Assembly: GCA_022508485.1 (NCBI GenBank)
Contig: JAFLVD010000001.1
Span: 62,001-126,000 of the forward strand
DNA: 64,000 nucleotides
Direction of reading: 5' to 3'
DNA from: Clostridiales bacterium
Lineage (GTDB): Bacteria > Bacillota > Clostridia > Christensenellales > Pumilibacteraceae
Within the stretch, counting starts at the first letter, position 1, and every line of letters begins with the position of its first letter. A program made the translations under genes and the position numbers. This document shows positions 6,259 to 30,496 of this stretch, in pieces. The notes below the pieces were generated by a model that saw nothing but the letters and a program-made list of their open reading frames with translations, did not search any database and had not been told where the DNA came from.

Positions 6259-6567
6259 ATGAAAATCGAACACAGTTTGTCGCACGGCGAACTTATTATA
6301 AAGCTTTCCGGCGAGCTTGACGAGAGGACGGGTCCGTACGTAAGAATGACGCTCGATTCTATTATCGACGCGTCCGATTTTAAGCGTATTCGTATCGACA
6401 TGTCTAAGCTTTCGTTTATGGACTCGACGGGGATAGGCGTGCTAATAGGCAGATACAAGCGCCTCTCGCCGCGCGGTATTCCAATCATATTGCAATCGCC
6501 GAACCCGTCAGTAGACCGCGTGCTCGGTCTGTCCGGCATATACAATATCATGATAAAGGCAGGTTAA
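6259..6567 (+). CDS. spoIIAA: Anti-sigma F factor antagonist SpoIIAA
   Basis: STAS-domain protein (LSGELDERTGPYVR...IRIDMSKLSFMDSTGIGVLIGRYK) directly followed by spoIIAB and sigF. Confidence 0.95.
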   Translation: MKIEHSLSHGELIIKLSGELDERTGPYVRMTLDSIIDASDFKRIRIDMSKLSFMDSTGIGVLIGRYKRLSPRGIPIILQSPNPSVDRVLGLSGIYNIMIKAG

Positions 6568-6569
6568 TT

Positions 6570-7019
6570 ATGCATAACGAAATGACCTTGATATTTTCGG
6601 CTGTGTCCGAAAACGAAGCATTTGCGCGCAACGCGGTTGCGGCGTTTTGCGTTCCGCTCGATCCCACAATCGACCAGATTAACGATATAAAAACCGCCGT
6701 GTCCGAGGCGGTTACCAACTGCATAGTCCACGCTTACCCGATAAAGCCGGAGGAAAAGTTTGTAACGGTTAAAACCGTTATAGACGGCGGCACCGTACAT
6801 ATCGTCGTATCGGATAACGGAATCGGTATAGAGGACGTGGAAAAGGCAATGCAGCCTTTCTTTACCACTAAGCCGGACGAGGAGAGAAGCGGAATGGGAT
6901 TTACAGTAATGGAATCGTTCTGCGACTCGCTCGAAGTTACAAAAAACACTCCGTCCGGAACAACCGTATCCATGACGAAACGAGTTAGAGGTGCGGATTG
7001 GAAAACGAACAAGTCTTAA
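6570..7019 (+). CDS. spoIIAB: Anti-sigma F factor SpoIIAB (serine kinase)
   Basis: HATPase motifs SEAVTNCIVHAY, VSDNGIGIEDVEKAMQPFFTTKPDEERSGMGFTVMESF; operon context. Confidence 0.96.
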   Translation: MHNEMTLIFSAVSENEAFARNAVAAFCVPLDPTIDQINDIKTAVSEAVTNCIVHAYPIKPEEKFVTVKTVIDGGTVHIVVSDNGIGIEDVEKAMQPFFTTKPDEERSGMGFTVMESFCDSLEVTKNTPSGTTVSMTKRVRGADWKTNKS

Positions 7020-7717
7020 ACCTAATAGCCGCGGCGCAAAGCGGCGACAACAGCGCGTGCGAGATTTTATTGACTCGCAATTCGCCGCTCATTAAGTCGG
7101 TTATCAGGCGGTACAAAAACAGAAACGTCGAGTACGACGATCTGTATCAGCTAGGGTGCGTAGGCTTTATTAAAGCGGTAAAAAACTTTTCAACCGCCTT
7201 CGAGGTTCGGTTTTCTACCTATGCCGTGCCCATGATAGCAGGCGAGGTAAAGCGTTTTTTGCGCGACGACGGACCAATAAAGGTGTCGCGAGGAACTAAG
7301 GCCGCGGCAATAAAAATCGCGCGGTTTATCGAGGATTACAGAGCCAAAAACGGCGATGCGCCCACGGTCGAACAAATCGCAAAAGAGTTTTCGATAGAAG
7401 CGCAAGAGGTCGTTTTTATACTCGACTCGGGCAAATATCCGATTTCTATTTACGACAGAACGGACGACGACGGTTCGCGATCTTTAATCGATAAGCTTCA
7501 TTCCGACGAGAACGAGGACGATCGTCTTGACAGCATGATGCTTAAAACCGTAATAGACTCGTTAGAGCCGCGCGACAAAAAAATAATACTGCTTAGGTAT
7601 TTTGCCGACAAAACGCAGGCGGAGGTCGCGCGCGTTCTTAACGTATCTCAGGTTCAGATTTCTCGGTTAGAGAATAAAGTGTTAAATAAAATCCGCGAGG
7701 CGTACGGCGAGATATAA
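6998..7717 (+). CDS. sigF: RNA polymerase sigma-F factor
   Basis: Sigma-70 family protein (SRGTKAAAIKIA..., LEPRDKKIILLRYFADKTQAEVARVLNVSQVQISRLE); TTG start overlapping spoIIAB; spoIIA order. Confidence 0.95.
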   Translation: MENEQVLNLIAAAQSGDNSACEILLTRNSPLIKSVIRRYKNRNVEYDDLYQLGCVGFIKAVKNFSTAFEVRFSTYAVPMIAGEVKRFLRDDGPIKVSRGTKAAAIKIARFIEDYRAKNGDAPTVEQIAKEFSIEAQEVVFILDSGKYPISIYDRTDDDGSRSLIDKLHSDENEDDRLDSMMLKTVIDSLEPRDKKIILLRYFADKTQAEVARVLNVSQVQISRLENKVLNKIREAYGEI

Positions 7718-7752
7718 AAATTGCCGCACTTGGCGCAGATTTTATCCGATAT

Positions 7753-7782
7753 GAATAATAACTCGGCTCAAGTATCAAATTA
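7753..7782 (+). promoter_or_regulatory. Candidate sigma-G/sigma-F-type forespore promoter for the spoVA genes
   Basis: GAATA 7753-7757, 18-nt spacer, CAAATTA 7776-7782, compared with the remembered sigma-G consensus gHATR/CATnhTA (one mismatch). Confidence 0.35.
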
Positions 7783-7787
7783 TCGGT

Positions 7788-7901
7788 ATGGATAATAAAA
7801 AAGAACGGGTTTTGGGCGAAGGCTTTATCACGACGACGGCGCGCGACGACGCTTTCGGTCCGATAAAAACCCACGAGTCGAGGAATTATTATGGCGAATA
7901 A
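7788..7901 (+). CDS. Small 37-aa ORF overlapping the spoVAC start
   Basis: MDNKKERVLGEGFITTTARDDAFGPIKTHESRNYYGE*, stop overlaps the spoVAC ATG region; below the ORF-track size cutoff. Confidence 0.4.
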   Translation: MDNKKERVLGEGFITTTARDDAFGPIKTHESRNYYGE

Positions 7902-8364
7902 AGAAGCGGCGGTAAAACGCCGTAACGAGCGTTACAATAAGTACGTAAACACAGTTACGCCTACTACAAGTCTGCCAAAAGCTTTGTGGCACAGCTTTTG
8001 GATAGGCGGTCTTACGTGTATGTTAGGCCAGGGTATAGGCGATATAGTAAAGGCGATTGCGCCCGATATGCCCGTCGACACGGTATCTAATATCACGTCG
8101 ATGATTCTCATTACGGTAGCTATTCTGTTTACCGGGCTTGGATTTTACGATGTTATCGCGCGGCACGGCGGCGCAGGCTCGTTCCTGCCTATTACCGGCT
8201 TTGCAAACGCAATGGCGAGCGCTTCCATGGAATTCAAAACGGAAGGGCTTATTTTCGGCACGAGCGTTAAGATGTTTTCGGTCGTCGGTCCCGTCGTTGT
8301 AAACGGAATAGTTTGGTCGACCGTCGCAGGTTTAATTAACCTTTTGATACTCGGGGCGGTGTAA
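7891..8364 (+). CDS. spoVAC: Stage V sporulation protein AC
   Basis: SpoVAC-type membrane protein (FWIGGLTCMLGQGIGDI...GLGFYDVIARHGGAGSFLPITGFANAMASASMEFKTEGLIFG). Confidence 0.95.
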   Translation: MANKEAAVKRRNERYNKYVNTVTPTTSLPKALWHSFWIGGLTCMLGQGIGDIVKAIAPDMPVDTVSNITSMILITVAILFTGLGFYDVIARHGGAGSFLPITGFANAMASASMEFKTEGLIFGTSVKMFSVVGPVVVNGIVWSTVAGLINLLILGAV

Positions 8365-8365
8365 T

Positions 8366-9058
8366 ATGTTCGACGAATTTATTAAATCCGAACGGACCAC
8401 GCTCTCAAAACGCAAAAGAATAATGCGCTTTGACAATAAGCCGCGCATAACCGGGCGAATGAGCGTTGTGGGCGTAAAGGAATCTCAAGGCCCGGTCGCA
8501 AGGTATTTTCACCGTTGCGAGGTAGACGATAAAATGGGCGAAAAAACCTTCGAGCGCGCGGAAATCCGCATGTTCGATACTGCGGTGCGAGGCGCGCTTA
8601 GGGACGCGCTTTTAACGGCGGAGGACGTGGATTTGTTTATTTCGGGCGATCTTCTCAATCAGATGACGACTTCGAGCTACGCCGCGCGCGATATAGGCGT
8701 GCCGCACGTCGGCGTGTACGGCGCGTGTTCGACCATGACCGAAAGTCTTATGCTTTCCGCGTCGATGGTAAACGCCGGGTATTTTAATAATGTGCTTTGC
8801 GCGGTGAGCAGCCACTTTGCTACGGCGGAACGCCAGTTCAGATATCCGCTCGAATACGGCTGTCAACGTCCGCCTTACGCGCAGTGGACGGTAACGGGTT
8901 CCGCGGCGTCTGTCGTGTCCCAAAACAGCGAAAAGACGGCGCGTTTCCCCAAAATCGTGTGCGCCATTCCCGGTATTATTACCGACTTCGGCACCAACGA
9001 TCTTAATAATATGGGGGCGGCAATGGCGCCCGATAATGTTATAATACCACCATATTAA
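8366..9058 (+). CDS. spoVAD: Stage V sporulation protein AD, N-terminal fragment (gene interrupted after codon ...MAP, followed by element-encoded DNVIIPPY*)
   Basis: Thiolase-like SpoVAD (VDLFISGDLLNQMTTSSYAARDIGVPHVGVYGACSTMTESL..SSHFATAERQFRYPLEYG) breaks off at NNMGAAMAP, within the conserved MAPAAxDT region. Confidence 0.95.
   Translation: MFDEFIKSERTTLSKRKRIMRFDNKPRITGRMSVVGVKESQGPVARYFHRCEVDDKMGEKTFERAEIRMFDTAVRGALRDALLTAEDVDLFISGDLLNQMTTSSYAARDIGVPHVGVYGACSTMTESLMLSASMVNAGYFNNVLCAVSSHFATAERQFRYPLEYGCQRPPYAQWTVTGSAASVVSQNSEKTARFPKIVCAIPGIITDFGTNDLNNMGAAMAPDNVIIPPY
9009..9053 (+). other. attL: left junction of the spoVAD intervening element
   Basis: spoVAD ATG GCG CCC G joined to element DNA; core CCCG 9029-9032 matches 33777-33780; CACCAT arm 9048-9053 is an inverted copy of ATGGTG 33754-33759. 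Confidence 0.85.
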
Positions 9059-9148
9059 GGCGAACAACGACGCTTTGGCACAAAAATTCAGTCAAAAAGG
9101 GGGTGAGTACGCTTTTTCGCCTTATTTTTAGGTTTAAATTATACACTT

Positions 9149-9442
9149 ATGAAAAACTCTCCGCCAAAAAGAAAAAACACCGCCGATATTTTACGCGAAG
9201 CAAATTACGATTGTGGGAATAAAAAGTACGTTCGGCGCGATTATACGGACGGCACGGTCGATTTAATTACATATAACGTGAATAAAAAATATTGGCTTTT
9301 TGAAACGTTCGTAAATAAAAAAATACTCGGCATGGAATATGACTTCGAGAATTGTTTGTCAAGCCCGGCGTTTTGCGGCTTGTATTTTGTTTATGCGACG
9401 ATAATTTATGACCGAAGAAGGGCACCTAAAAGTAAAGCTTAG
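9149..9442 (+). CDS. Hypothetical protein at the left end of the element
   Basis: 97-aa ORF, not recognised, weak RBS; would be the first ORF downstream of the predicted circle-junction promoter. Confidence 0.35.
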   Translation: MKNSPPKRKNTADILREANYDCGNKKYVRRDYTDGTVDLITYNVNKKYWLFETFVNKKILGMEYDFENCLSSPAFCGLYFVYATIIYDRRRAPKSKA

Positions 9443-10305
9443 GACGAGCTTTCCACAAGCGCAATGCCTCGGTCGGGATCGGGATCCAGATACTTAGCGT
9501 GTTTTATGGTCGAGGTAAATACAAAGTCAGGCGGAACGGTAGACGGCGTGTAGCCGGTGTACTTTTTAAATATGTCGTTAAAATTGCGGATTGTCCCGAA
9601 GCCGCACAGATTGGATATTTCGGTCATGGAATAGTCGCCGGTTTTAATAAGCTTTATCGCTTTTTGAATGCGAATGCGGTTTATGTAGTAGATAAGGTTG
9701 ACGCCCGTTTTTTGCGCAAACAATCTCGACAGATAGCTCGCGTTCATATTCATGAATTTTGCGGCGTCGTCCAGCGTATAGTTTTCGGCGTTAATTTCCA
9801 GCTCGCACAGCAGCGCCGCAAACCTGTCGTCTACGCCGTCGGTAGGCTTTTTGGCGGAAGTAGGGTTGTCGCGGAAAAGCTTGACCATAAGCTCGCTTAA
9901 TGTGGAAAGGGTCATTACGTTGTACATAACCGCTTTGTTTTTAAGCTCGTTTAATATAATATCGTACGCTCGTTTTACGTTTTCGCCTTTTTCGATTAGA
10001 GGTGAGGTAAGGGTTACGTCCATAGCGAAGTCGTTTATTATAGAGCGCGCAAACACCAAAACGATTAGCAGTGTGGATTCGTCCACCGAAACCATTTTGT
10101 GAAGCATTCGGCTGTCGAAAAACATTGCGTTGCCTTGAGTAACGCGGTAGTTTTTCCCGGACGTAAAAACGTCCATTGCGCCGCGCTCGATAAAAATAAG
10201 CTCACACTCGTCGTGCCAGTGCAGCATGTTTTTTGAGTTGAGATACTTCCCGACCCAAACCTTTTCCCCATGTTCGTAAATCCACGTTTGTCTTGCGGAG
10301 TCCAT
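9439..10305 (-). CDS. AraC family transcriptional regulator (cupin plus HTH)
   Basis: HWHDECELIFIERG N-terminal cupin; AraC HTH (FAQKTGVNLIYYINRIRIQKAIKLIKTGDYSMTEISNLCGFGTIRNFNDIFKKYTGYTPS). Confidence 0.93.
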   Translation of the reverse strand: MDSARQTWIYEHGEKVWVGKYLNSKNMLHWHDECELIFIERGAMDVFTSGKNYRVTQGNAMFFDSRMLHKMVSVDESTLLIVLVFARSIINDFAMDVTLTSPLIEKGENVKRAYDIILNELKNKAVMYNVMTLSTLSELMVKLFRDNPTSAKKPTDGVDDRFAALLCELEINAENYTLDDAAKFMNMNASYLSRLFAQKTGVNLIYYINRIRIQKAIKLIKTGDYSMTEISNLCGFGTIRNFNDIFKKYTGYTPSTVPPDFVFTSTIKHAKYLDPDPDRGIALVESSS

Positions 10306-16026: not shown

Positions 16027-17136
16027 ATGAAGTTAGGAATAGACGTTTCTACATACTACGAGGAAATTGACCGCGGCGCAACGTACTACGACGGCGATAA
16101 AAAGGTAGAGCCGCTCGGTATGCTTCGGGATAACGGAGTGGATATTATGCGTATTCGCGTTTGGGTAAATCCTTATGACGAAGAAGGCAATCCCTATCTC
16201 GGCGGAACGTGCGACCTTGATAATTTTATTCGCCTTGCCAAAAAGGCGGAAAGCATGGGCTTTGCCGTGATGCTCGATATTCACTATTCCGACTTTTGGT
16301 GCGATCCCGGTAAGCAGACTATTCCAAAAGCGTGGAAGGACCTCGATTTGTCGGGGCTTACCCAAAAAGTGTACGAGTATACAAAACACGTTCTTTCCGT
16401 AGCCGAAGGCAACGGAATAGACATTAAGTACATTCAGGTAGGCAACGAGATAACAAACGGTATGCTTTGGCCGATCGGAAAGCTTATAGAGCACGATAAA
16501 GGGCCTCGTACCAATTACGAAAGCTTAATTGCGCTTTTAAAGGCAGGAATTATGGCCTGCCGCGAAGTTAAGCCGTCCGCCGCGCTGATACTGCACCTTG
16601 AAAAAAGCTACGATATACAGCTTTACAACGAGTTTTTCTCGAATATGCAAGGGCTTGATTACGATATAATCGGATTTTCGTACTATCCGTACTGGCACGG
16701 TACTTTCGAGCAGTTTTACGCAAACGTTGAAAACTGCAAGAAATTCGGGAAAAGACTTATGGTTGTCGAAATCGGTTACGGCTTTACTCTCGAGGACTAC
16801 ATAAAAAGCTCGCACGGTGGGGCGCATCTCGTTATAGACGCCACCGTAGTGGAAGGCATGGGCTTTGTAAACGACTATCCGTTAACGCCGGCAGGTCAAG
16901 CAAAGTTTATAAGGGATTTTTTACCGCTCGCGCGCAAGCACGGCATAGAGGCCGTTATATGGTGGGAACCGCTTTGGATTCCCGGCGACGGCATTTGTTG
17001 GTCGAGCGAGAACGCTCAGCGCTACACCGGCGCGGAAGAAATAAAGTCGACTCGTAACGAATGGGCTAATCAGTGTCTGTTCGATTACGAGGGCAAAAAG
17101 CTTCCGGCTTTCGACGAATTCGTATTAAAAGGTTAA
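16027..17136 (+). CDS. GH53 arabinogalactan endo-beta-1,4-galactanase, no signal peptide (cytosolic)
   Basis: GVDIMRIRVWVNPY, VMLDIHYSDFWCDPGKQTIPKAW, IQVGNE (acid/base), MVVEIGY (nucleophile). Confidence 0.93.
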   Translation: MKLGIDVSTYYEEIDRGATYYDGDKKVEPLGMLRDNGVDIMRIRVWVNPYDEEGNPYLGGTCDLDNFIRLAKKAESMGFAVMLDIHYSDFWCDPGKQTIPKAWKDLDLSGLTQKVYEYTKHVLSVAEGNGIDIKYIQVGNEITNGMLWPIGKLIEHDKGPRTNYESLIALLKAGIMACREVKPSAALILHLEKSYDIQLYNEFFSNMQGLDYDIIGFSYYPYWHGTFEQFYANVENCKKFGKRLMVVEIGYGFTLEDYIKSSHGGAHLVIDATVVEGMGFVNDYPLTPAGQAKFIRDFLPLARKHGIEAVIWWEPLWIPGDGICWSSENAQRYTGAEEIKSTRNEWANQCLFDYEGKKLPAFDEFVLKG

Positions 17137-17181: not shown

Positions 17182-18465
17182 ATGAAAAAAGTAATTTCCA
17201 CACTGCTAAGCGCACTTATGCTCAGCGGCTGCGTTGCCGGCTTTGCCGCGTGCGACGGCGCGCCCAAAGACGACGGCATCGACGCAAAGTATAAGTACGA
17301 CATCACCGTATGGGTCGGTGAGGACACAAGCAACCTTACCAAAGACCTTATTACCAAGTTTAACACCGAAAACACAAACAGCATTTATTTTAACGCAAAG
17401 GTTATAGAGGTTACGGAAAGTAAGGCCGCCGGCGACATTCTCTCAAAGCCTTCTTCCGCGCCCGAAATTTTCTGCTTTGCGCAGGACCAGATTGCGCGTC
17501 TTGTCAGCGCCGGACTTCTCGCGGCGCCGAGCGCGTCAATTAAAAACAAAATTGTGGAAACCCATTCCGAAACCGCGGTAGCAGCGGCAACTATGGGCAC
17601 CACTCTGTACGCATATCCTCTTACCGAGGACAACGGCTACTTCCTTTACTATGACAACCGTCTGATTAACGAAACGCAGGCGGACTCGATTGAGAGCATT
17701 ATAGAAGTATGTAAATCCTCTACCACAAAGTTTAGCTTCGGGCTTAACGGCGGCTGGTACGTTTCGTCCTTCTTCTACGCGGCAGGCGCTCATTCCGAGT
17801 GGACTGTCGACGATCAGGGCAGGTTTACCGACTACGACGACACATTTAATTCCGCCGAGGGCAAAATTGCCGCAAAGGGATTGCAGAAGGTTCTTAAAGA
17901 AGAAGCGGTATACAGCAAAAACGGCGCCGCATCCGACTTTAACGCCGCTATCCCGGCGGCTGCCGTCGTAAGCGGTATCTGGGACTATAACACCGCCAAA
18001 AACGCGCTCAGCAAAAAGGACGGCGAGGGCGTTCCCGACGGTAAGGGGGATTATCTCGGCATTGCAAAGCTTCCCACATATACCGTAGACGATGAGTCTT
18101 ACAGGCTTAAATCGTATCTCGGCAGCAAGCTTCTCGGCGTATCGCCTCAGACCAACGCCAATAAGTCCGCGGCGTTATCCATACTTGCCCAGTATCTTAC
18201 GAACGCGGAAAGCCAGCTCGCGCGTTACAAAGCGTTCGGCTGGGGTCCTTCCGCAAAGACCGCAAAGGAAAACGCCGACGTTAAGGCGGACGTTGCCCTT
18301 AACGCACTGAAAGAAACGGCTACCGTTCCTCAGGGTCAGTATCCCGCAAACTGGTGGGCTAAACCCGAGGTTCTGTCTGCGTCCCTTGCTACGGCGACGA
18401 GCGATCTTGCGATAGATACCGCTCTTTCGACCTATGCGGAATCGTTAAGCGGACTCCTCGACTGA
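17182..18465 (+). CDS. ABC sugar transporter extracellular solute-binding lipoprotein
   Basis: MKKVISTLLSALMLSGCVAGFAAC lipobox; YDITVWVGEDTSNLTKDLITKFNTEN; followed by MalF/MalG-type permeases. Confidence 0.9.
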   Translation: MKKVISTLLSALMLSGCVAGFAACDGAPKDDGIDAKYKYDITVWVGEDTSNLTKDLITKFNTENTNSIYFNAKVIEVTESKAAGDILSKPSSAPEIFCFAQDQIARLVSAGLLAAPSASIKNKIVETHSETAVAAATMGTTLYAYPLTEDNGYFLYYDNRLINETQADSIESIIEVCKSSTTKFSFGLNGGWYVSSFFYAAGAHSEWTVDDQGRFTDYDDTFNSAEGKIAAKGLQKVLKEEAVYSKNGAASDFNAAIPAAAVVSGIWDYNTAKNALSKKDGEGVPDGKGDYLGIAKLPTYTVDDESYRLKSYLGSKLLGVSPQTNANKSAALSILAQYLTNAESQLARYKAFGWGPSAKTAKENADVKADVALNALKETATVPQGQYPANWWAKPEVLSASLATATSDLAIDTALSTYAESLSGLLD

Positions 18466-18491
18466 TAAAAAGGCCGACTGAGTAAAAGGAG

Positions 18492-20036
18492 GTGGTAGAG
18501 ATGACTAAATTGGATTCTCTCGCTTATCTTAAACTGAATAAATGGCAGAAGTTTATTTACAAGCTTAAATGCTTCTTTTGCGCCATTCCCGGCTGGCTCG
18601 ACGACAAGATCAGATATATAAACAGATTCTTTAAAAAGCTGTTCTTTAAAATCGGCGAAACTTTTGTCGATGTCTGGCAGACTTTTAAAAACGGAAGCTG
18701 GTCCACAAAAGTATCTTTTCTTGTCATGGGATTCGGCAACTTTTTCCACAAACAATGGTTAAGGGGTTTGGTTTTCCTGATATTGGAAGTCGTATTTATC
18801 CTATACATGATTCTTGCCGGCGCGTACTGGCTATCTATGTTCGGCTCACTCGGTAAAATAGAGACTCGGACGGAGATGGTGCCGAGCGACCTACTGGACG
18901 GCGAGCTTGTGGAACAAATCTATTACGGCGACAATTCGTTTAAGATATTGCTTTACGGACTGTTAACGATATTCTTTATTATAGCTTTTATTTATACCTG
19001 GCGTCTAAACGTCAAGCAGTGCAAAATCTGCGACCAAATTACTCGCGCAGGTAAAAAGATTAAGTCGTCGGGCGACGATCTTAAATCGATGGTCGACAAC
19101 GACTTCCACAAAACGCTTCTCGCATTGCCCGTTGCCGGTATTACGATGTTTACGGTGCTGCCCATAATCTTCATGATTTTGGTTGCATTTACAAACTACG
19201 ACAAAAACCACGACGGACTTATGAACCTCTTCCAGTGGGTAGGGCTTGATAACTTTAATTCGGTGCTCACATTCGGATCGGGTATGCAGGTTGCATTCGG
19301 CGAGATACTTGCCTGGACGCTTATATGGGCGTTTTTCGCAACGTTCAGCTGTTACTTCCTCGGAATGTTTGTTGCGATAATGATTAACAAGAAGGGCATC
19401 AAAATCAAAAAGTTCTGGCGGACTATTTTGGTTATGACGATAGCCGTTCCGCAGTTTATATCGCTTCTTTACATTTCCAATCTGTTTGCGGATAACGGAA
19501 TAGTGAACGCAACGCTAATGAACTGGGGCTGGATACAAAGTCCGATAAAGTTCTGGGGCGACGGAACCCTCGCCAAAATAATGGTACTCGTTATAAACAT
19601 CTGGGTAGGTATTCCGTACCTCATGCTTATTACGACGGGTATACTTATGAATATCCCTGCCGATCTTTACGAGTCGGCGAGGATAGACGGCGCCAACGCC
19701 TTCCAGCAGTTTGCTAAAATAACGCTACCGTACATGCTGTTCGTTACCGGCCCGTACCTACTTACAAGCTTTGTAAGCAACATAAACAACTTTAACGTTA
19801 TATACTTGCTGACGCAGGGCGGACCTACAAACCCCGTTTGGGGCGACGTCGGCGGTTATGTAGCCGGCGATACGACTATTCTTATTACTTGGTTATTCGG
19901 AATAACGACGGGTAACGACGCTAACTACAAGATGGCTTCCGTAATAGGTATATTGATATTCATTGTAGTATCTGTGCTGTCGCTCGTGGTGTTCTCTATT
20001 ATGCCTGCAACCAAAAGGGAGGACGATTTCTCATGA
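18492..20036 (+). CDS. ABC sugar transporter permease (MalF/GanP-like)
   Basis: Multi-TM; EAA-type motif ESARIDGANAFQQFAKITLPYMLFVTGPYL. Confidence 0.92.
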   Translation: MVEMTKLDSLAYLKLNKWQKFIYKLKCFFCAIPGWLDDKIRYINRFFKKLFFKIGETFVDVWQTFKNGSWSTKVSFLVMGFGNFFHKQWLRGLVFLILEVVFILYMILAGAYWLSMFGSLGKIETRTEMVPSDLLDGELVEQIYYGDNSFKILLYGLLTIFFIIAFIYTWRLNVKQCKICDQITRAGKKIKSSGDDLKSMVDNDFHKTLLALPVAGITMFTVLPIIFMILVAFTNYDKNHDGLMNLFQWVGLDNFNSVLTFGSGMQVAFGEILAWTLIWAFFATFSCYFLGMFVAIMINKKGIKIKKFWRTILVMTIAVPQFISLLYISNLFADNGIVNATLMNWGWIQSPIKFWGDGTLAKIMVLVINIWVGIPYLMLITTGILMNIPADLYESARIDGANAFQQFAKITLPYMLFVTGPYLLTSFVSNINNFNVIYLLTQGGPTNPVWGDVGGYVAGDTTILITWLFGITTGNDANYKMASVIGILIFIVVSVLSLVVFSIMPATKREDDFS

Positions 20037-21103
20037 CGGATAAAGATATTAAACAGATTGAAGAAAACGGCGAAATGATAACCGTCGTAGAGTTCGGACT
20101 CGACGAGCAAAAAGGCAAATCGAAGAGCACGAAAACCGAACCTAACGCAATAGAAATCGACGCGTCGGGCGTAGAGGAATTTTTGGAACGGCAAGAGGCG
20201 GCGCAGATACACCACGTTCGGTCCGCCAAAGAGCAGTCGCAGGACAACAAAAGGCACGGCTCGCAAAGCAAAAGGCGTTTGGTGGGCAACACCATTATAC
20301 ATATAGTGCTTGCTATAATGAGCATTATTTGGATAGCGCCGTTCGTGTTTATCGTGTTTGAGTCGTTCCGCTGCGAAAGCACCGGTCTTGCCGGATACAT
20401 AATTCCGCATAAGTGGGGCTTTGACAACTACATTAGGCTCTTTACCCAAACGGAATTTCCGAGATGGTTTTTAAGCACCTTCCTTATGGGACTTGTTTGT
20501 GCGGTTGTTCAGACTGTATTTATACTTGCAATGAGCTACGCTTTGTCCCGTAACAGGTTTAAAGGCAGAAAATTCCTTATGAACGCAATGCTCGTACTCG
20601 GAATGTTCCCCGGATTCTTAACGCTTATACTTTTGTATACGCTTTTGAACGGTTGGGGACTCACCGGGTCCAACGCGCCGTACGGCTTGGTGCTTATTTA
20701 TGTGGCAAGCTCGGGCATGGGCTACTACGTATGTAAGGGCTTTTTCGACACCATATCGCATTCGCTCGACGAGGCGGCAATGGTGGACGGGGCGAGCAAG
20801 TTCCAAATCTTCTACAAGATAATCATTCCCATGAGTAAGCCTATAATCATATACACCATTCTTATGGGCTTTATGGGACCGTGGGGCGACTTTATTACCG
20901 CAAGATTCATGTCCGACAACGATCCGCTCGGCTTTAACGTTGCAACCGGTTTGCAGTGGCTGATAGGCGAGACGCGCGTCGACAAATACTACACGACTTT
21001 CTGTGCAGGCGGCGTTATCGTTGCGTTACCCATTACGCTACTGTTTATGTTCCTTCAAAAATACTATGTCGCCGGTGTTACGGGCGGCGCCGTTAAAGGT
21101 TAA
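20033..21103 (+). CDS. ABC sugar transporter permease (MalG/GanQ-like)
   Basis: EAA-type motif SLDEAAMVDGASKFQIFYKIIIPMSKP; overlaps the previous permease. Confidence 0.92.
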   Translation: MTDKDIKQIEENGEMITVVEFGLDEQKGKSKSTKTEPNAIEIDASGVEEFLERQEAAQIHHVRSAKEQSQDNKRHGSQSKRRLVGNTIIHIVLAIMSIIWIAPFVFIVFESFRCESTGLAGYIIPHKWGFDNYIRLFTQTEFPRWFLSTFLMGLVCAVVQTVFILAMSYALSRNRFKGRKFLMNAMLVLGMFPGFLTLILLYTLLNGWGLTGSNAPYGLVLIYVASSGMGYYVCKGFFDTISHSLDEAAMVDGASKFQIFYKIIIPMSKPIIIYTILMGFMGPWGDFITARFMSDNDPLGFNVATGLQWLIGETRVDKYYTTFCAGGVIVALPITLLFMFLQKYYVAGVTGGAVKG

Positions 21104-21115
21104 GGAGAATGAATT

Positions 21116-22318
21116 ATGGCAAGTGTCAAATTAACAAACGTTAAAAAAATCTACGGCAAAAATACGGTTGCCGTGCACGACTTTAATCTCGATATCGCCG
21201 ATAAGGAATTTATAGTTTTCGTAGGTCCTTCGGGTTGCGGAAAGAGTACCACGCTTCGTATGATTGCCGGACTGGAGGACATTTCGGAAGGCACGGTGGA
21301 AATCGACGGCAGGGTTGTTAACGACCTTCTGCCCAAAGACCGCGGCATAGCGATGGTTTTCCAAAACTACGCGCTGTATCCGCACCTTACGGTTTTCGAG
21401 AATATGGCTTTCTCGTTGCGGCTTAAAAAGGTCGACAACGACGAGATATATAAGCGCGTTACCGAGGCTGCCGAGGTGCTCGGAATTACGGAATACTTAA
21501 CGCGCAGACCTCGCGAGCTTTCGGGCGGACAGCGCCAGCGCGTGGCAATCGGCCGCGCTATGGTCAGAGACTCTAAGGTTTTCCTTATGGACGAGCCGCT
21601 AAGTAACCTCGACGCCAAGCTCAGAAACCAAATGCGCGCGGAGATTATTTTACTCCGCAAAAAGATAAATACTACGTTCATCTACGTTACGCACGACCAA
21701 ACCGAGGCTATGACGCTCGGCGACCGTATCGTAATTATGAAAGACGGGTATATAATGCAGGTCGGATCGCCTTCGCAGGTATTCGAAATGCCCGACAACC
21801 TGTTTGTCGCGGAATTTATAGGCGCGCCTAAGATGAACACCGTTCATACCGCGCTCGAATTAGAGGACGGCAAGTATTACGTATCGCCGTTCGGTGTGAA
21901 AATGCCGGTCGACGGCGACAAAGGCGAGGCGCTCAAAGAGAAGGGCGTAGAGGCACAGGATATTATTCTCGGCGTTCGTCCCGAACATATCACGCTTTCC
22001 AACAGCAAAAATCCGTGCGCCGTGCCTTGCCAAATCCGCGTAAACGAGATGATGGGAAGCGAACTGCATCTGCACGTTACCACGCCTACCGACGAACCGC
22101 TCGTTATCCGCGTTCCTACGGTCGACATTTTGCCCAACCAGCTTGCGGCGCTTGTTCCGGGCGTGCGTATTTACGTTACGTTCCGCAGCAAGGTAATGCA
22201 CTTCTTTAACGCACAGTCCGAGCTTAATCTTTTAACTATGCCCGACTCGACGGAGGAGGCTACAACAAAAGAGAGCCCTGCCGAAACGGACGAGCAAGTC
22301 CAACCCGAAAATAAATAG
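21116..22318 (+). CDS. ABC transporter ATP-binding protein (MsmX/UgpC-like)
   Basis: Walker A GPSGCGKSTTLRMIAGLE, LSGGQRQRVAIGRAM, Walker B VFLMDEPLSNLDAKLR, C-terminal TOBE-like region. Confidence 0.95.
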   Translation: MASVKLTNVKKIYGKNTVAVHDFNLDIADKEFIVFVGPSGCGKSTTLRMIAGLEDISEGTVEIDGRVVNDLLPKDRGIAMVFQNYALYPHLTVFENMAFSLRLKKVDNDEIYKRVTEAAEVLGITEYLTRRPRELSGGQRQRVAIGRAMVRDSKVFLMDEPLSNLDAKLRNQMRAEIILLRKKINTTFIYVTHDQTEAMTLGDRIVIMKDGYIMQVGSPSQVFEMPDNLFVAEFIGAPKMNTVHTALELEDGKYYVSPFGVKMPVDGDKGEALKEKGVEAQDIILGVRPEHITLSNSKNPCAVPCQIRVNEMMGSELHLHVTTPTDEPLVIRVPTVDILPNQLAALVPGVRIYVTFRSKVMHFFNAQSELNLLTMPDSTEEATTKESPAETDEQVQPENK

Positions 22319-22326
22319 GAGGAATT

Positions 22327-24951
22327 ATGAAAACCAATAAGTTTTACAGAACTGCGGTAAGCCTTATGCTCGGCATTATCATGCTGTTTTCGGCGGCGGC
22401 TTGTACCGTAACACCCGAACCTTCGGGCGACGAAAACGTCGAAAGCGTGGATATTATGGCTTCGCTTGTTATCGACATAGGCGATACCTACACGTTGCAG
22501 GCGACGCTTATGCCGTTCGGCGTAGAAGCTAAGGTTTCGTGGCTTTCGAGCGACCCTTCCGTCGCTACCGTAAATAACGACGGTTTAGTAACCGGCGTTG
22601 CCGCAGGCGTAACCATTGTAAGAGCTTCCGCCGGCGGTAAATTCGCCAACTGCACCGTTACCGTAAACGACCCCAATAACAGAAACGTACCCGTAACCTC
22701 GGTCAAGTTTAATACCAACGTTGTGCGAGACCTCGAAGTGGGCGGCGACACCGTAAAGCTTACGGCAACTATTTTGCCTGAAAACGCCACCGACAAAACG
22801 CTTGTATGGGCAAGCTCGGATCCGAGCGTTGCTACCGTCAGTAATGCCGGAGAAATTACCGCCGTCGCACCGGGAACGACTAACGTAACCGCAACCGCTC
22901 ACAACGGCTTAAAGGCGACGTGCCGTGTTACGGTTGCCGGCGAGGCGCAAGCCGTTTCCACACTCAACGTTAAAAAGATAGACGAGCTTGAGGACCGCGA
23001 CGACTTTATTATGGGTATGGATGCGTCCGCAGTTCCGTCGCTCGAGGCGGCAGGCGTTGTTTATAAGGACTACGACGGCACGGTAAAGGACGTTTTCCAA
23101 ATTCTCAAAGATAACGGAATAACCGACATTCGTATCCGTATCTGGAACAATCCTTATCAAGCCGGTCATTACGGCGATGTGGCGTACAGCTACGGCGGAG
23201 GAAACTGCGACGTAGAAAACGCTGTCGCCATTGCCGAGCGCTGCGAGGAAATCGGTCTCGGCGTAATTATCGACTTCCATTATTCCGACTTCTGGGCGGA
23301 CCCCGGTAAGCAGAAAGCGCCTAAGGACTGGGCGAGTAAATCCACCGCCGAGCGCGAAACGGCTATCTATGAGTTTACCAAGTCCTGCCTCGAGGATATT
23401 AAGGAAACAGGCGTTAAAATCACAATGGTTCAGGTCGGCAACGAAACGACGAGAAGCATCTGCGAAGCCAATTTCGACAGCGCGCGCTCTACGTACTGCG
23501 CGTACATCAACGCAGGCTCTCGCGCGGTTAGAGAGGTTACCGGCACGGTAGCTAACGGCGGTGCGAAGGTAGCTATCCATCTTACAAACCCCGAATCGAG
23601 AGATTACGCAGGATACGCTCAAGCGTTTATCGATTATAACGTCGATTACGACGTATTCGGTTCTTCGTATTATCCGTTCTGGCACGGCACGCTTGCTAAC
23701 CTTGCCAACAAGCTTAAACAGGTTCACGACGTAAGCGGAAAGGAAGTTATGGTCCTCGAAACGTCCTACGCCTTTACCGACGAGGACTTTGACGGCACCG
23801 GCAACACCCAGCTTCCGGTTAAGACTCAGCCCTTTACCGTTCAGGGTCAGTCCAACGCGATTTTGGACGTCATCGAAACGATTGCAAAGCTCGGCGATTA
23901 CGGTCTCGGTATTTGCTACTGGGAAGGCACCTGGATTGCCCCTGCCGATAACCGCGCGGAAACAATCGAGCTGTGCAATCGCTACGGTTGCGGCTGGGCG
24001 TCCGCTAAGGCAGGTCCCTCGTCGATAGGCGGCGACGGCTACCAAGCAAGCGACGTAACTACCGCAGGCGGCGTAGTTATAGACAATCAGGCGTTTTTCA
24101 GCTCGATCGACGGAAAGGTTATCGAATCGCTTAAAGTGTTTAAGTACGCTAAATTGGGTCTCGAAGCGCCGCCCGTCGCAGATTACCTTTACACGCAGGA
24201 ACTCTTCTACACCGTAAACGAAGGCACGATTACGCTTCCTGCCAAAGTAACTATCGTACTTAACGACGGTTCTATTATGTCCGTCGACGCCCTTTGGGAC
24301 GTCGATAACGATGAGGTTGCCGGCTATATTAACGTGGTTAACGACTACGTTATTAAGGGCACCACCCCCTACGGCGGCGAGGCTATCTGCAAGATTTACG
24401 TTCAGAACAAAAACCTGCTCGTAGACGGTAGCTTCGAAAACACCGCCGGTTACGGCTCTGTCGATAACAAGATAGACGTTCCCGACCCGTGGAAGTACGA
24501 ACTTATCGCTTCCAAGCACGTGCTTCAGTTGTACGTTTCAACCGACGAGGCCAACGCAAAGATGGGCACCAAGTCGATGCACTTCTGGGACGACGCCGCT
24601 ATCGAGTTAAGACTGTACCAGGAAGTCGATCTTGCCTCCGCCGTTGCGGAATACGGACTCGGCGTGTACGGCTTCAGCGTTGACTTTGCCGGCGGCGACT
24701 GCGGCGACACTCAAGAGATTTATTCCTACGCTCTTATTACCTACAAGAACGGAAAGGAAGCGCTCACAGTTAAGGGAACGAGTGTTACTGCCGACGGCTG
24801 GCAGCAGTGGAGTAGGTCCGCAATCGACGAGATTGTAATTACAGAGGACGTCGCGTCCGTCAAGGTAGGCGTTTACCTTAAAGCGGAGGCCGGCGGATGG
24901 GGCAACTTCGATAACGCGCAGTTCTTCTTTAAGTCCGCCTCGAATGCATAA
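22327..24951 (+). CDS. Secreted GH53 endo-beta-1,4-galactanase with N-terminal BIG_2 Ig-like domains and C-terminal binding module
   Basis: Lipobox SAAAC; two BIG_2 repeats; GITDIRIRIWNNPY, VIIDFHYSDFWADPGKQKAPKDW, VQVGNE, VMVLETSYAFT. Confidence 0.93.
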   Translation: MKTNKFYRTAVSLMLGIIMLFSAAACTVTPEPSGDENVESVDIMASLVIDIGDTYTLQATLMPFGVEAKVSWLSSDPSVATVNNDGLVTGVAAGVTIVRASAGGKFANCTVTVNDPNNRNVPVTSVKFNTNVVRDLEVGGDTVKLTATILPENATDKTLVWASSDPSVATVSNAGEITAVAPGTTNVTATAHNGLKATCRVTVAGEAQAVSTLNVKKIDELEDRDDFIMGMDASAVPSLEAAGVVYKDYDGTVKDVFQILKDNGITDIRIRIWNNPYQAGHYGDVAYSYGGGNCDVENAVAIAERCEEIGLGVIIDFHYSDFWADPGKQKAPKDWASKSTAERETAIYEFTKSCLEDIKETGVKITMVQVGNETTRSICEANFDSARSTYCAYINAGSRAVREVTGTVANGGAKVAIHLTNPESRDYAGYAQAFIDYNVDYDVFGSSYYPFWHGTLANLANKLKQVHDVSGKEVMVLETSYAFTDEDFDGTGNTQLPVKTQPFTVQGQSNAILDVIETIAKLGDYGLGICYWEGTWIAPADNRAETIELCNRYGCGWASAKAGPSSIGGDGYQASDVTTAGGVVIDNQAFFSSIDGKVIESLKVFKYAKLGLEAPPVADYLYTQELFYTVNEGTITLPAKVTIVLNDGSIMSVDALWDVDNDEVAGYINVVNDYVIKGTTPYGGEAICKIYVQNKNLLVDGSFENTAGYGSVDNKIDVPDPWKYELIASKHVLQLYVSTDEANAKMGTKSMHFWDDAAIELRLYQEVDLASAVAEYGLGVYGFSVDFAGGDCGDTQEIYSYALITYKNGKEALTVKGTSVTADGWQQWSRSAIDEIVITEDVASVKVGVYLKAEAGGWGNFDNAQFFFKSASNA

Positions 24952-25044: not shown

Positions 25045-26976
25045 ATGAAAAAATTGTATTTCGGTGCGGCGTACTATCCCGAGCTTTGGGATAAATCGGA
25101 AATTGACGAGGATATAAAACGCTGTAAGGAACTCGGCTTAAACGTTTTGAGAGTGGGCGAGTTTGCTTGGGGCAAAATGGAACCGCGAGAGGGCGAGTAC
25201 GACCTCGACTGGCTCGAATGCGTAGTGGATAAATTGCATAAAGCCGGTATCGTTACGGTTATGTGTACGCCTACCTGCACGCCGCCGCGCTATATGCTCG
25301 ATAAATACGAGGAAATGCGCAACGTTTCCGACCGCGGAGTGAGGACTAAAACGTCCTGGCGGTGTCATCCGTGCAAAACCTCGCATATAATGCGCGAAAA
25401 GAATAGGGGTATAGTTACCGAAATGGCCAAACGCTTCGGATCTCACCCCGGCATAATAGGTTGGCAGATAGACAACGAGTTGTATCCGTACGGCGGTGGG
25501 TGCTATTGTCCGCTCTGCGTAAAGGAATTTCAAAAGTATCTTAAAAATAAATTCAAAACGGTAGATGCGCTTAACGACGCATGGGGAATGTCGCGCTGGT
25601 CGCTCGACTATCAAAGCTTCGACGCGGTAAATCCGCCGCTTGACGGCGAGTGGAAGCATCCGTCGCTGGTAAAGGCTTGGTGGGATTTTCAGTGCCGACA
25701 GATTAAAACCTACATAGACGAGCAGGCGGAAATACTTCATAAGTACACAAAGGTTCCTATCGGCACCGACATGATGTCTAATAACAACCTCGGTTACTAC
25801 GAAACGACGCATTCACTTGACATTGTACAGTTTAACCACTATAATAAAGCCGAAGAGCTTTACGAAACGGAGTTCTGGTACGACTTTTTGCGTTGCGTAA
25901 AAGATAAACCGTTTTGGGTAACCGAAACGCAGGTCGGTTGGAACGGCTCGACATTTGCCGCGTGCGGCGCGCGCCCGACGGGGAACTGCTTTATAAACAC
26001 GATTCTTCCGTTTGCTCACGGTGCTGATATGAACATGTATTGGCTTTTCCGAGCGCACCGTAACGGGCACGAGCTTTCTCACGGCGCGCTGTACTCTACG
26101 TCAGGTCAATTATACTCCGTTTCGTTCGAGGTAGAAGAGGCGATAAAGCTTATCTCAAAGCACGAGAAAACCTTTACGTCGCCTATAAAATCGGATATTG
26201 CGCTCAGCTTTTCTTCGACCGCGGCTAACACCTTTATGGCGGCGCCCATGCTTGAAAACTTCGACTACACCGCGACGATAAGGGATAAGTACTACACCGC
26301 GCTCAGGCATTACAACGTTGACGTAATCGACACGGCGCATTCGCTCGACGAATATAAGGTGGTTATTTCACCATTTATGTGCCACGCTCGGGAAAACAAC
26401 TTTAAAGAGCGCATTACCGAGTTCGTAAAGTCGGGCGGAACGTGGATAGTAGGTCCTATGACCGATATTGTCGATACGGAAGTAACCAAGTACACAAAAT
26501 CCACTTTATCTTTTGTAGAAGAAATGGTCGGCGCAGAGCTGCTTTACCAACGCCCGATAGAAAATCCGCAGTTTAAAGCCGAGTGGAACGACGGCACCCC
26601 GTGCGAAATATCTATGTGCTACGACTCGTTTTTGTTCGCTAATCCGCTCGCAACCTATACGGCAGGAGATTTCGGTAAAGAGTATGCCGTCGTGCAAAAG
26701 GAAATAGGGAAAGGCAAGGTAATACTTGTCGGCAGCGTTCTCTCTCATAAAGACCTTCGCAGACTTATTGAGCAAAACCCCATTCTTAAAGCAAGCGACA
26801 ACGTTTCGCTGACAGAGCGCGGCGCAAAAACCAAGACCGTTATTGCGGTCGAGATTGAAAACAAACAGGGATTTATCGAGTTTGACGGCAGATACAAATC
26901 CCTGCTGACCGGAGACGTAGTTTCGGGAAAAATTACAATCGAACCTTATTCGGTAGATATTTTCGAAAAGATTTAA
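25045..26976 (+). CDS. GH42 beta-galactosidase
   Basis: FGAAYYPELWDKSEIDEDIKRCKELGLNVLRVGEFAWGKMEPREGEYDLDWLE, WQIDNELYPYGGGCYCPLC, FWVTETQVGWNG. Confidence 0.95.
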   Translation: MKKLYFGAAYYPELWDKSEIDEDIKRCKELGLNVLRVGEFAWGKMEPREGEYDLDWLECVVDKLHKAGIVTVMCTPTCTPPRYMLDKYEEMRNVSDRGVRTKTSWRCHPCKTSHIMREKNRGIVTEMAKRFGSHPGIIGWQIDNELYPYGGGCYCPLCVKEFQKYLKNKFKTVDALNDAWGMSRWSLDYQSFDAVNPPLDGEWKHPSLVKAWWDFQCRQIKTYIDEQAEILHKYTKVPIGTDMMSNNNLGYYETTHSLDIVQFNHYNKAEELYETEFWYDFLRCVKDKPFWVTETQVGWNGSTFAACGARPTGNCFINTILPFAHGADMNMYWLFRAHRNGHELSHGALYSTSGQLYSVSFEVEEAIKLISKHEKTFTSPIKSDIALSFSSTAANTFMAAPMLENFDYTATIRDKYYTALRHYNVDVIDTAHSLDEYKVVISPFMCHARENNFKERITEFVKSGGTWIVGPMTDIVDTEVTKYTKSTLSFVEEMVGAELLYQRPIENPQFKAEWNDGTPCEISMCYDSFLFANPLATYTAGDFGKEYAVVQKEIGKGKVILVGSVLSHKDLRRLIEQNPILKASDNVSLTERGAKTKTVIAVEIENKQGFIEFDGRYKSLLTGDVVSGKITIEPYSVDIFEKI

Positions 26977-26997: not shown

Positions 26998-28362
26998 ATG
27001 GATATTCTTACACAAATCAACGATTTAATCGAATATGCTCAAAAAGAGCTTAACCTCGACGAACGCGACAAGCTTTACAAGGCCAACCGTTTACTCGAGA
27101 TTATGGAAAGCGGCTTAGAGGGCGGAGAAAAAGAGGACGCAATATACGGCGAGCTGTCCCTTTTGCCCTCCGCCGTCGACAAGACTTTTTCGAGCATTCT
27201 CAAAAAACAAGGCGGAAAAGCGGCAACCGATTGGCTGTATAACTATTGCGTTAAAAACATGTACGTTAAAAAGGCGGTACTCGACAAAAATCCGCGCCGA
27301 GACACCTCCAACGGCCTTACAATTACCATAAATAAAGCAAAGCCCGAGTTTAGGGATCCCAAAAAGGCGGTTCAGGGCAACAGTGTGGACGGCGGATTTT
27401 GTAAGTGCGTTATCTGCCGCGAAAACGAGGGCTTCGGCGCAAAAAACAAGCGCAACCTTCGCACCGTATCGCTAAAACTGAAAGGAAAAAATTGGTTTTG
27501 GCAGTATTCGCCGTACGGCTATTTTAACGAGCACGGCATTGCCGTTAACTGCGAGCATACGCCCATGCACGTCGATAGGCGCACGTTTGAAAATCTTATC
27601 GATTTTGTAGACAAGTTTCCGCATTACTTTATAGGCTGCAACGCGGCGCTTCCGAGGATAGGCGGCAGCGTGCTCGCTCACGACCACTACCAGGGCGGCG
27701 GCGAGGTGCTTCCGCTTCACAAGGCTAAAATCAAAAAGCTAATTGTCGACAAAAAGTATCCAGAAGTTACGGTCGGAATTCTCGACTGGCCGGGCACCGT
27801 TATAAGAATTAAAAACGATTCCAAAAACAAAATCGTCGATATTGCGGACAGAATTCGTACTGCGTGGGAATGTTACGAAAATGCCGCTCTCGGCATTATT
27901 CCCGTCGACAAAGACGGCGTTCATAACGCGGTAAGCCCGACTGTAATAAAAACCTCGGCAGGGTACGAGATGAACGTAATCCTTCGCAGCAACATCACGA
28001 ACGAAGTATACCCCGACGGAGTATTCCACGCTCACCCCGAATATCACGCAATTAAAAAAGAGAGTATCGGACTAATCGAGGCGCAAGGACTTTTTATTCT
28101 TCCCGGCAGGCTGGACGACGAGCTTAACGAGGTTAAAAAGCTGATAACGGACGGCAAGCCCCTTCCCGAAGAGTATTCCCAATTCGCGCTTGTGTACAAG
28201 GAAACAAAACAATTGTACGACAGCGGAAAATACACGGATATACATACGGCTATGTGGGAAGAGCTTGGAAGCATCTGTTACAGAATTTTGGAAAACACGG
28301 CCGTGTTTAAAAACGAAACGGACTTAATCGATTTTGTAAAACAAGTGGGTTTTAAAGCATGA
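26998..28362 (+). CDS. galT: UDP-glucose-hexose-1-phosphate uridylyltransferase (Firmicutes-type GalT)
   Basis: FCKCVICRENEGFGAKNKRNLRTVSLKLKGKNWFWQYSPYGYFNEHGIAVN, GSVLAHDHYQGG; followed by galK-galE-galM. Confidence 0.93.
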   Translation: MDILTQINDLIEYAQKELNLDERDKLYKANRLLEIMESGLEGGEKEDAIYGELSLLPSAVDKTFSSILKKQGGKAATDWLYNYCVKNMYVKKAVLDKNPRRDTSNGLTITINKAKPEFRDPKKAVQGNSVDGGFCKCVICRENEGFGAKNKRNLRTVSLKLKGKNWFWQYSPYGYFNEHGIAVNCEHTPMHVDRRTFENLIDFVDKFPHYFIGCNAALPRIGGSVLAHDHYQGGGEVLPLHKAKIKKLIVDKKYPEVTVGILDWPGTVIRIKNDSKNKIVDIADRIRTAWECYENAALGIIPVDKDGVHNAVSPTVIKTSAGYEMNVILRSNITNEVYPDGVFHAHPEYHAIKKESIGLIEAQGLFILPGRLDDELNEVKKLITDGKPLPEEYSQFALVYKETKQLYDSGKYTDIHTAMWEELGSICYRILENTAVFKNETDLIDFVKQVGFKA

Positions 28363-29477
28363 CAAAAGAATATACATACAAAGTAACTGCGGCAGGCAGA
28401 ATAAACATAATAGGCGAGCATATCGACTATTGCGGCGGAAAGGTTATGCCGGCGGCTCTGTCGCTTAAAAATACGGTATACATATGCCCCAACGGCACTA
28501 ATACGATAAATTTAAGCTGGACGACGCTTCCCGATAATGTATCGCTCGATATCGATAAGCTTGAAAGCTACAAAGGCTTAAAGTACGGCAATTATCAGGC
28601 CGGCGCGGCTCTTATGTGGAAAAACGCCGGGCATAAGGTGATTGGCTGCGATATGCTTCACGACTGTACCGTTCCTTTCGGCAGCGGACTTTCTTCCTCC
28701 GCCGCGATAGAGGTAAGCACGATTGCGGCGCTTGCAACCGTCGCCGGCGATTCTTTCGATCCGGTGGACGTGGCGTTAAAAGCGCAGCAAGCCGAGCGCG
28801 AATACACCGGCGTAAACTGCGGCATTATGGACCAGTACGCCTCCGCGTGCGGAAAAAAGAACAGCGTAATGCTTTTGGATTGCAGTACCGTTAAATGCGA
28901 CTATCTTCCGCTTAATCTCGGCGACTATTCGCTTGTAATAATCAACTGCAACAAGCCGCACAACCTTGTGGAAAGCAAATACAACGAGCGCCGTGCTCAA
29001 ACGGAAGAAGCGCTAAGCATACTCAAAACCGTTCTTCCTGTTTCGTGCCTTGCCGAAGTTTCCGTAGAGCAATTCGAAAAGTACGGTAAAAAATTGAGCG
29101 GCAAGGTGTACGATAGGTGCAAGCACGTTGTGGAAGAGTGCGAGAGGGTAAACAAGGCTGCCGCCGCTATGAAAAGCGGCGATATTCTCTTACTCGGCAA
29201 GCTTCTCAACGAGTCGCACAAATCGCTCAAAGAGCTATACGAGGTAACAGGGGCCGAGCTTGACGCCCTTGCCGCGGCCGCGCAAGCTCACCCTGCGTGT
29301 ATCGGGTCGAGAATGACGGGCGCCGGCTTCGGAGGCTGCACGATTTCGCTTGTTCACAAAGACGGCGTGGACGACTTTAAAAAGGTTGTTTCCGCCGAAT
29401 ACTTAAATAAAATCGGCTACGAGTGCAAGATTTACGACGCGGAGATAGCCGACGGCATTACGGTTACAAAAATTTAG
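28359..29477 (+). CDS. galK: Galactokinase
   Basis: GRINIIGEHIDYCGGKVMPAAL, VPFGSGLSSSAAIEVS, GSRMTGAGFGGCTISLV. Confidence 0.95.
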   Translation: MTKEYTYKVTAAGRINIIGEHIDYCGGKVMPAALSLKNTVYICPNGTNTINLSWTTLPDNVSLDIDKLESYKGLKYGNYQAGAALMWKNAGHKVIGCDMLHDCTVPFGSGLSSSAAIEVSTIAALATVAGDSFDPVDVALKAQQAEREYTGVNCGIMDQYASACGKKNSVMLLDCSTVKCDYLPLNLGDYSLVIINCNKPHNLVESKYNERRAQTEEALSILKTVLPVSCLAEVSVEQFEKYGKKLSGKVYDRCKHVVEECERVNKAAAAMKSGDILLLGKLLNESHKSLKELYEVTGAELDALAAAAQAHPACIGSRMTGAGFGGCTISLVHKDGVDDFKKVVSAEYLNKIGYECKIYDAEIADGITVTKI

Positions 29478-29485
29478 GGGGTTTT

Positions 29486-30496
29486 ATGAAGATTTTAGTT
29501 ACAGGCGGTGCCGGTTATATCGGCTCTCATACGTGCGTTGAGCTTCTCGAAAAAGGTTACGAGGTTGTGGTTATCGATAATTTCGACAATTCCTCGCCTA
29601 AGGCGATATCTCGTGTACAACAGATTACCGGCAAAAAGATTGATTTATACAAGGGCGATTTGCGCAACGGTAAGCTTCTCGACAAGATTTTTACCGAGCA
29701 TAAAATCGACTGGGTAATTCACTTCGCCGGATTGAAGGCGGTGGGCGAAAGCTGCGTAAAGCCTATCGAGTACTACGACAACAATCTGTACGGAACGCTC
29801 GTTCTGACCGATAAAATGCGCAAGTACGGCTGCAAAAAGATTGTGTTTTCTTCGTCGGCTACAGTTTACGGCGACCCAGAATCTTTGCCGCTCACCGAGC
29901 AAAGCAAAACGGGCGGAACGACAAACCCCTACGGCACGAGCAAGTATTTTCAAGAGATTATGCTTAACGACATATATAAGTCGGATAACGAGTGGACGGT
30001 CGTTCTGTTAAGGTACTTTAACCCCGTCGGCGCGCACGAAAGCGGACTTATAGGCGAGGATCCGCAGGGCATTCCCAACAACCTGACGCCGTATATAGCA
30101 AAGGTAGCTATCGGCGCGTTAAAAGAAGTGGGCGTTTTCGGCAACGATTACGACACGCCCGACGGCACCGGCGTAAGGGATTATATCCACGTCGTCGACC
30201 TTGCCAAAGGCCACGTTGCCGCAATCGATAAAATTTCCAAGTCGGGCGTCTATACCTACAATCTCGGCACGGGAATCGGGTATTCCGTTTTGGACGTTAT
30301 AAATGCGTTTAGTAAGGCGTGCGGAAAACAGATTCCGTACTCTATTAAGCCGCGCCGCGCCGGCGACATTGCCGCGTGCTATGCAGACGCAAGTAAAGCG
30401 AAAAAAGAGATCGGCTGGGAAGCAAAGCTCGGTATAGACGACATGTGCGCGTCGCTTTGGAACTGGCAGTCCAAAAATCCAAAAGGCTACAATTAA
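29486..30496 (+). CDS. galE: UDP-glucose 4-epimerase
   Basis: MKILVTGGAGYIGSHTCVELLEKGYEVVVIDNFDNSS, YGTSKYFQEIMLND; internal ATG at 29486 preferred over the ORF-track start. Confidence 0.95.
   Translation: MKILVTGGAGYIGSHTCVELLEKGYEVVVIDNFDNSSPKAISRVQQITGKKIDLYKGDLRNGKLLDKIFTEHKIDWVIHFAGLKAVGESCVKPIEYYDNNLYGTLVLTDKMRKYGCKKIVFSSSATVYGDPESLPLTEQSKTGGTTNPYGTSKYFQEIMLNDIYKSDNEWTVVLLRYFNPVGAHESGLIGEDPQGIPNNLTPYIAKVAIGALKEVGVFGNDYDTPDGTGVRDYIHVVDLAKGHVAAIDKISKSGVYTYNLGTGIGYSVLDVINAFSKACGKQIPYSIKPRRAGDIAACYADASKAKKEIGWEAKLGIDDMCASLWNWQSKNPKGYN

Follow-up and report, generated by a model that had tools for sequence, protein, structure and literature searches.

Elements that interrupt sporulation genes

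Elements inserted within a bacterial gene can serve as reversible switches of that gene, as occurs in the active lysogeny of the Listeria comK prophage. Among spore formers, the sigK gene is split by skin in B. subtilis and by skinCd in C. difficile, the latter with CD1234 as recombination directionality factor (RDF). Such an element uses a large serine recombinase, and its sporulation-controlled excision restores the frame of a gene of the mother cell, a terminal cell line (PMC6957869, PMC5025042). The non-phage element gin (28.6 kb), described in one strain, B. cereus ATCC10987, encodes three serine recombinases and interrupts gerE, another mother-cell gene (PMC5595907). In fact, "almost all" intervening elements are found in mother-cell genes, a bias attributed to the fact that the mother cell dies (PMC6957869), and the contrast with mother-cell genes drawn in the original prediction for the locus presented here agrees with this rule in the literature.

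Two further systems are related to this locus in other ways. In Tn4451, the joined ends of the element form a promoter for tnpX, according to the passage of PMC13023037 that cites Lyras and Rood 2000. The operon spoVA2mob, located on Tn1546, ties spoVA genes to mobile DNA (PMC5133452, PMC6907783). A literature search found no published description of an interrupted spoVAD.

The element reported in this study shares with skin a large serine recombinase and a split sporulation gene whose frame excision would restore, and it resembles gin in size and in the absence of recognised phage genes. However, its target is the forespore gene spoVAD and not a mother-cell-specific one, which makes it an exception to the mother-cell rule, and it also differs from skin in the sigma-A-type promoter of its integrase and in its nutrient cargo. 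The closest PDB match of this integrase is TnpX (2mhc, 2.8e-24), and one related element carries TnpV. Nevertheless, the spoVAD element has a fixed site, and its predicted junction promoter is directed not towards the integrase but into a predicted structured RNA, while that of Tn4451 serves tnpX in the passage mentioned above. As a possible reversible switch it recalls active lysogeny, although no phage genes are recognised in it and reintegration is hypothetical. Finally, spoVA2mob carries spoVA genes, whereas this element interrupts the chromosomal spoVAD (PMC5133452, PMC6907783).

An integrative element within spoVAD

The window (the whole stretch of 64,000 nucleotides that was analysed) holds the following features in and around spoVAD:

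6259-6567, spoIIAA, intact
6570-7019, spoIIAB, intact
6998-7717, sigF, intact
7753..7782, + strand, sigma-G-type (forespore) promoter of spoVAC-spoVAD-spoVAE, GAATA-N18-CAAATTA
7891..8364, + strand, spoVAC, intact (NCBIfam TIGR02838, Pfam PF03862)
8366..9058, + strand, N-terminal part of spoVAD (PF07451, Pfam SpoVAD, positions 2-205; relatives continue MAPAAMDT)
9029..9030, + strand, attL crossover dinucleotide CC (comparison of attL, attR and empty sites; joined frame)
33777..33778, + strand, attR crossover dinucleotide CC (same basis)
33765..34181, + strand, C-terminal part of spoVAD (PF07451 positions 200-329)
34181..34555, + strand, spoVAE (TIGR02839)

The original prediction of an interrupted spoVAD beside an intact spoIIAA-AB-sigF-spoVAC region has thus been confirmed. 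The two halves lie 24.7 kb apart, the C-terminal one and spoVAE being placed behind a TnpX-type serine integrase, and spoVAE is separated by the element from its own promoter. The last residues of the N-terminal reading frame are derived from the element, SpoVAD itself ending at residue ~205. That prediction also depended on whether another intact spoVAD exists elsewhere, and a search of the whole genome (2.07 Mb assembly, 95.8% complete) found no second SpoVAD, only the two split pieces. Most relatives read MGAAMAPAAMDT across the site, each with one uninterrupted spoVAD, and in others the break falls at this very codon, indicating that the break is not a chance event. Just upstream of spoIIAA, the window encodes a GH3 protein and an Ig-like lipoprotein (697-5936); a similar lipoprotein gene is also upstream in the sister species G007, and the remaining stretches read from the genus show neither gene immediately before spoIIAA.

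Alignment of attL, attR and empty sites puts the crossover at codon positions one and two of an invariant Pro (ATG GCN CCN GCN, or M-A-P-A, in intact relatives). Computational joining of the flanks yields a single open frame of 355 codons, and the predicted circle has 24,748 bp. Inverted-repeat arms around a 2-bp core are typical of serine integrases, and here CC is enclosed by an 18-nt imperfect inverted repeat made up of the attP arms TATGGTGTTTTATTGACA and TGTTATAATACCACCATA, as in TnpX-like integrative elements. The window genome is assembled in the integrated form, with one contig running across it. Searches of 396 genomes and of IMG/VR revealed no assembled circle junction, and in IMG/VR the attR pattern gave no match either; three junction matches among the 396 genomes were rejected as chance, the left arm missing in each.

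The genes of the element, and the promoter of its integrase, are the following:

9149..9442, + strand, 97-aa protein without Pfam match, first + strand gene of the element, conserved in the G005 and G007 elements
9439..10305, - strand, AraC-type regulator (ORF reading), with orthologues in the G005 and G007 elements
13979-15790, 603-aa protein encoded in the galactan cluster, no Pfam match, conserved in the G005 element
16027..17136, + strand, GH53 endo-galactanase (PF07745, 1.6e-90)
17182..22318, + strand, sugar ABC transporter: binding protein, two permeases and ATPase (ORF reading)
22327..24951, + strand, secreted GH53 galactanase with Ig-like domains (PF07745, 9.6e-102; Big_2)
25045..26976, + strand, GH42 beta-galactosidase (PF02449, 2.6e-92)
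26998..31511, + strand, galT (PF02744), galK, galE and galM (the last three by ORF reading), with orthologues in the G005 and G007 elements
31591..31833, + strand, DUF6870 protein, candidate recombination directionality factor (PF21757, 7e-13)
31847..31875, + strand, sigma-A-type promoter of the integrase, TTGCAT-N17-TATAAT
31922..33592, + strand, TnpX-type large serine integrase (Resolvase, Recombinase and Zn-ribbon domains)

A DUF6870-like gene directly precedes the integrase in most spoVAD elements, which makes this protein the leading candidate for the directionality factor; its predicted fold is of low confidence, too uncertain for comparison. The ORFs of the window element include no recognised gene for transfer, mobilisation or replication, and reading of all ORFs in 9031-33778 revealed no structural phage gene.

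Occupation of the same codon in relatives

Elements with unrelated cargo and integrases of one clade occupy the Pro codon in about 28 species, which represent at least six families of the order. In the family of the window, most genomes have a single intact spoVAD and empty sites are the majority, while six genomes of four genera are broken at the same residue (G000, which is the window genome, G005, G007, G030, G066 and G069). An even sample of the order adds G079, G157, G217, G223, G234, G316, G412 and G426. Moreover, scanning 84,980 species genomes with the attR pattern gave 22 matches, 21 of which lead in frame into the SpoVAD C-terminus; all 21 belong to Clostridia MAGs, and 14 represent species new to the tally. 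The 22nd, in a cyanobacterium (L124), is a chance match. The integrases at the spoVAD site form a group when compared with the family's remaining serine recombinases, and only one, the second recombinase of G217, is loosely placed. The G217 element presents two adjacent serine recombinases ahead of attR (L110:7413-10770).

Galactan/galactose cargo is found in the elements of G000, G005 and G007, with apparent glgC/D/A genes in addition in G005 (ORF reading). Several of the cargo names in relatives rest on ORF reading, and they include a TraG/VirB4-type gene (G030), an alpha-amylase (L134), restriction-type genes with TnpV (G426) and surface-glycan synthesis (G234, L123, L131 and L143). The G079 element holds a ParA gene at the end into which the circle promoter described below would read. 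As unrelated cargo occupies the same site elsewhere, the proposed trade-off between galactan use and sporulation is not specific.

Other variations of the locus have been observed. In two genera of family f3 (g51 and g78), spoVAD was considered as a split gene, but this was rejected because the two matches share one frame; their SpoVAD has an in-frame insertion at residue ~174 (L088, L089, L090; G181, G106, G148). In the intact genome G006 (C21; L045:1-2000), galE and galM are located between sigF and spoVAC, beside spoVAD and not within it.

Predicted forespore expression and timing of excision

The spoVA genes are sigma-G genes in B. subtilis. A sigma-G-type site, GMATA-N18-CAAATTA, precedes spoVAC in each of the 15 genomes of the genus that were tested, the three with an interrupted spoVAD among them; overall it occurs in 21 of 47 genomes, against 0.2 expected. 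Homology, position and this conserved promoter together support the assignment of spoVAD to the forespore programme, as had been proposed.

The integrase promoter, by contrast, looks vegetative. Only a sigma-A-type promoter was found upstream of it, similar ones precede the other spoVAD integrases examined, and no sporulation-type (sigma-G-type) promoter was found at the integrase or at DUF6870, which argues against a switch timed by sporulation. The integrase may nonetheless answer to an activator or repressor, and through it to sporulation. Following the integrase promoter (window 31876-31921), many spoVAD elements conserve a GTGYYAAAGTGTC-like motif, a possible operator. Thus, the forespore argument of the original prediction is supported, but its framing of excision as an event timed by sporulation has not been borne out.

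Two assemblies suggest that empty and occupied sites may coexist. The empty site of G085 lies within contig C4, which stops 141 nt past the first position of the core CC. Contig C3 opens at this CC with the identical 141-mer, the element side not being seen. In G412, one contig ends and another starts exactly at the core. These breaks lend indirect support to mixed populations because coexisting empty and occupied sites branch the assembly graph, although they could equally mean two strains instead of excision. Other contig breaks, near residue 100 and in G082, have no relation to the core. Contig C136 of G042 (L117:1-56) starts with apparent Illumina adapter sequence.

A predicted promoter of the circle

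Joining of the element ends creates TTGACA-N17-TATAAT, a promoter-like sequence formed in the circle only, which points away from the integrase into the left end of the element:

33765..33770, + strand, TTGACA in attR, -35 half of the circle-only promoter
9040..9045, + strand, TATAAT, -10 half of the circle-only promoter
9052..9130, + strand, structured RNA predicted for the left end (stem: 9056-9064 paired with 9116-9124; T-run)

TTGACA is present in the 11 attR sites (11/11) that were found without using it as a search key, and TATNNT occupies the -10 place in 10 of 10 attL sequences. The spacing between hexamers is 17 in the eight elements for which both ends are available, and random joins within the element gave no such promoter pair in 200,000 trials. 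Integrase binding alone is an insufficient explanation of the hexamers, since they break the dyad symmetry of the arms. The predicted RNA presents CACAAAAA and a GGAGGT-like motif in its loop, and its stem is formed by differing sequences in eight elements (combined p 3.6e-8); leader stems were tested one by one, after sequence alignment failed to align them. An Rfam match to FuFi-1 is at chance level and absent in relatives. That the junction promoter or the RNA might help to keep the circle is speculation.

These features bear on a programmed excision in the forespore, in which an unrecognised trigger acting there or just before asymmetric division would release the circle, to be packed into the spore and reintegrated at outgrowth. 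The forespore-type operon, the selection still acting on spoVAD (see below) and the promoter and structured RNA that the circle would gain, with ParA at that position in one relative, all agree with this possibility. Nevertheless, it is considered unlikely in view of the lack of sporulation-type promoters at the integrase and DUF6870 and of a recognised replication gene in the window element.

Selection on the split gene and persistence of the element

In the host tree, the carriers G000 and G007 come out as sister species, and G005 is nested among intact genomes, so gains or losses recur. Between G000 and G007, dS is 0.7-1.0 for most host flank genes (1.98 for spoVAE) and 0.9-1.1 for the element genes (0.49 for galK), values that near 1 are rough due to saturation. 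Since both sets share a dS of ~1, the comparison indicates that element and host co-diverged. During this co-divergence the two halves of spoVAD have remained under strong purifying selection (dN/dS 0.058 for the N half and 0.042 for the C half), and the joined gene (0.053) falls inside the range of intact pairs. Such constraint is not expected of a gene that is permanently switched off. This suggests that spoVAD is still used in element carriers, excision in some cells or generations being the simplest reason, and it disfavours the "loss of normal sporulation" offered as one outcome in the original prediction.

It is likewise rather improbable that the insertion is simply parasitic, that is, that carriers are unable to form normal spores, that the element persists through horizontal transfer and that spoVAD is maintained in element-free cells. 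The recurring gains or losses and the majority of empty sites would fit such turnover, but the co-divergence in G000 and G007 argues against it, as does the fact that no conjugation or phage gene is recognised in the galactan element.

A split protein, whose halves would be made separately and then assemble with no need of excision, is very unlikely: both halves are conserved and each attR has an in-frame TTG where the C half begins, but the break cuts one Pfam domain, the TTG belongs to the TTGACA motif, neither a clear ribosome site nor a sporulation promoter serves the C half, and spoVAE is separated as well. Equally slight is the chance that the host no longer forms spores and the interruption has no effect, for although alpha/beta-type SASP (PF00269, a short model that may miss divergent forms) were detected in none of 74 family genomes including that of the window, purifying selection acts on the spoVA genes and the window genome retains four sporulation sigma factors (sigF, sigG, sigE with SpoIIGA, and an uninterrupted sigK) as well as SpoIVA.

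A model for heritable excision and its implications

The sequence facts of the spoVAD element are firm, and the model that we favour to explain them has somewhat better than an even chance of being correct as a whole. According to this model, the 24.7 kb element, inserted at the CC of the invariant Pro codon of a forespore gene, would encode an integrase active at a low level in growing cells. The population would then mix integrated cells, which use galactan and have spoVAD and spoVAE off, with excised cells, and only in the latter would the spoVA operon be completed at sporulation to give competent spores. The element would persist because it reintegrates, because some lineages retain it and perhaps also through the circle, whose junction promoter may produce the structured RNA or, in one relative, ParA. 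Excision would not be a step restricted to the mother cell but, unlike that of skin, heritable, because excision in growing cells would yield excised cells that sporulate.

A broader proposal is held only tentatively and is probably not correct in full: spoVAD would be a lineage-wide docking site and its islands a heritable, reversible switch, in which excision activates both the operon of the forespore DPA channel and the circle promoter, and the RNA or partition genes under this promoter let the circle stay with the spore up to reintegration.

The new aspects of this locus are the recurrence at the same codon, the conservation of the sigma-G-type promoter, the co-divergence with purifying selection, the sigma-A-type promoter of the integrase, the circle promoter and the core-exact contig breaks. 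The islands in spoVAD define a new integrase/attachment-site family, and carbohydrate, surface-glycan and defence islands reach uncultured gut Clostridia through one fixed landing site, the Pro codon. A conserved and selected interruption of a forespore gene breaks a rule that rests on the mother cell as a dead end. It also makes testable the question of whether a programmed or stochastic DNA deletion is passed to the bacterial germ line, and how the element returns.
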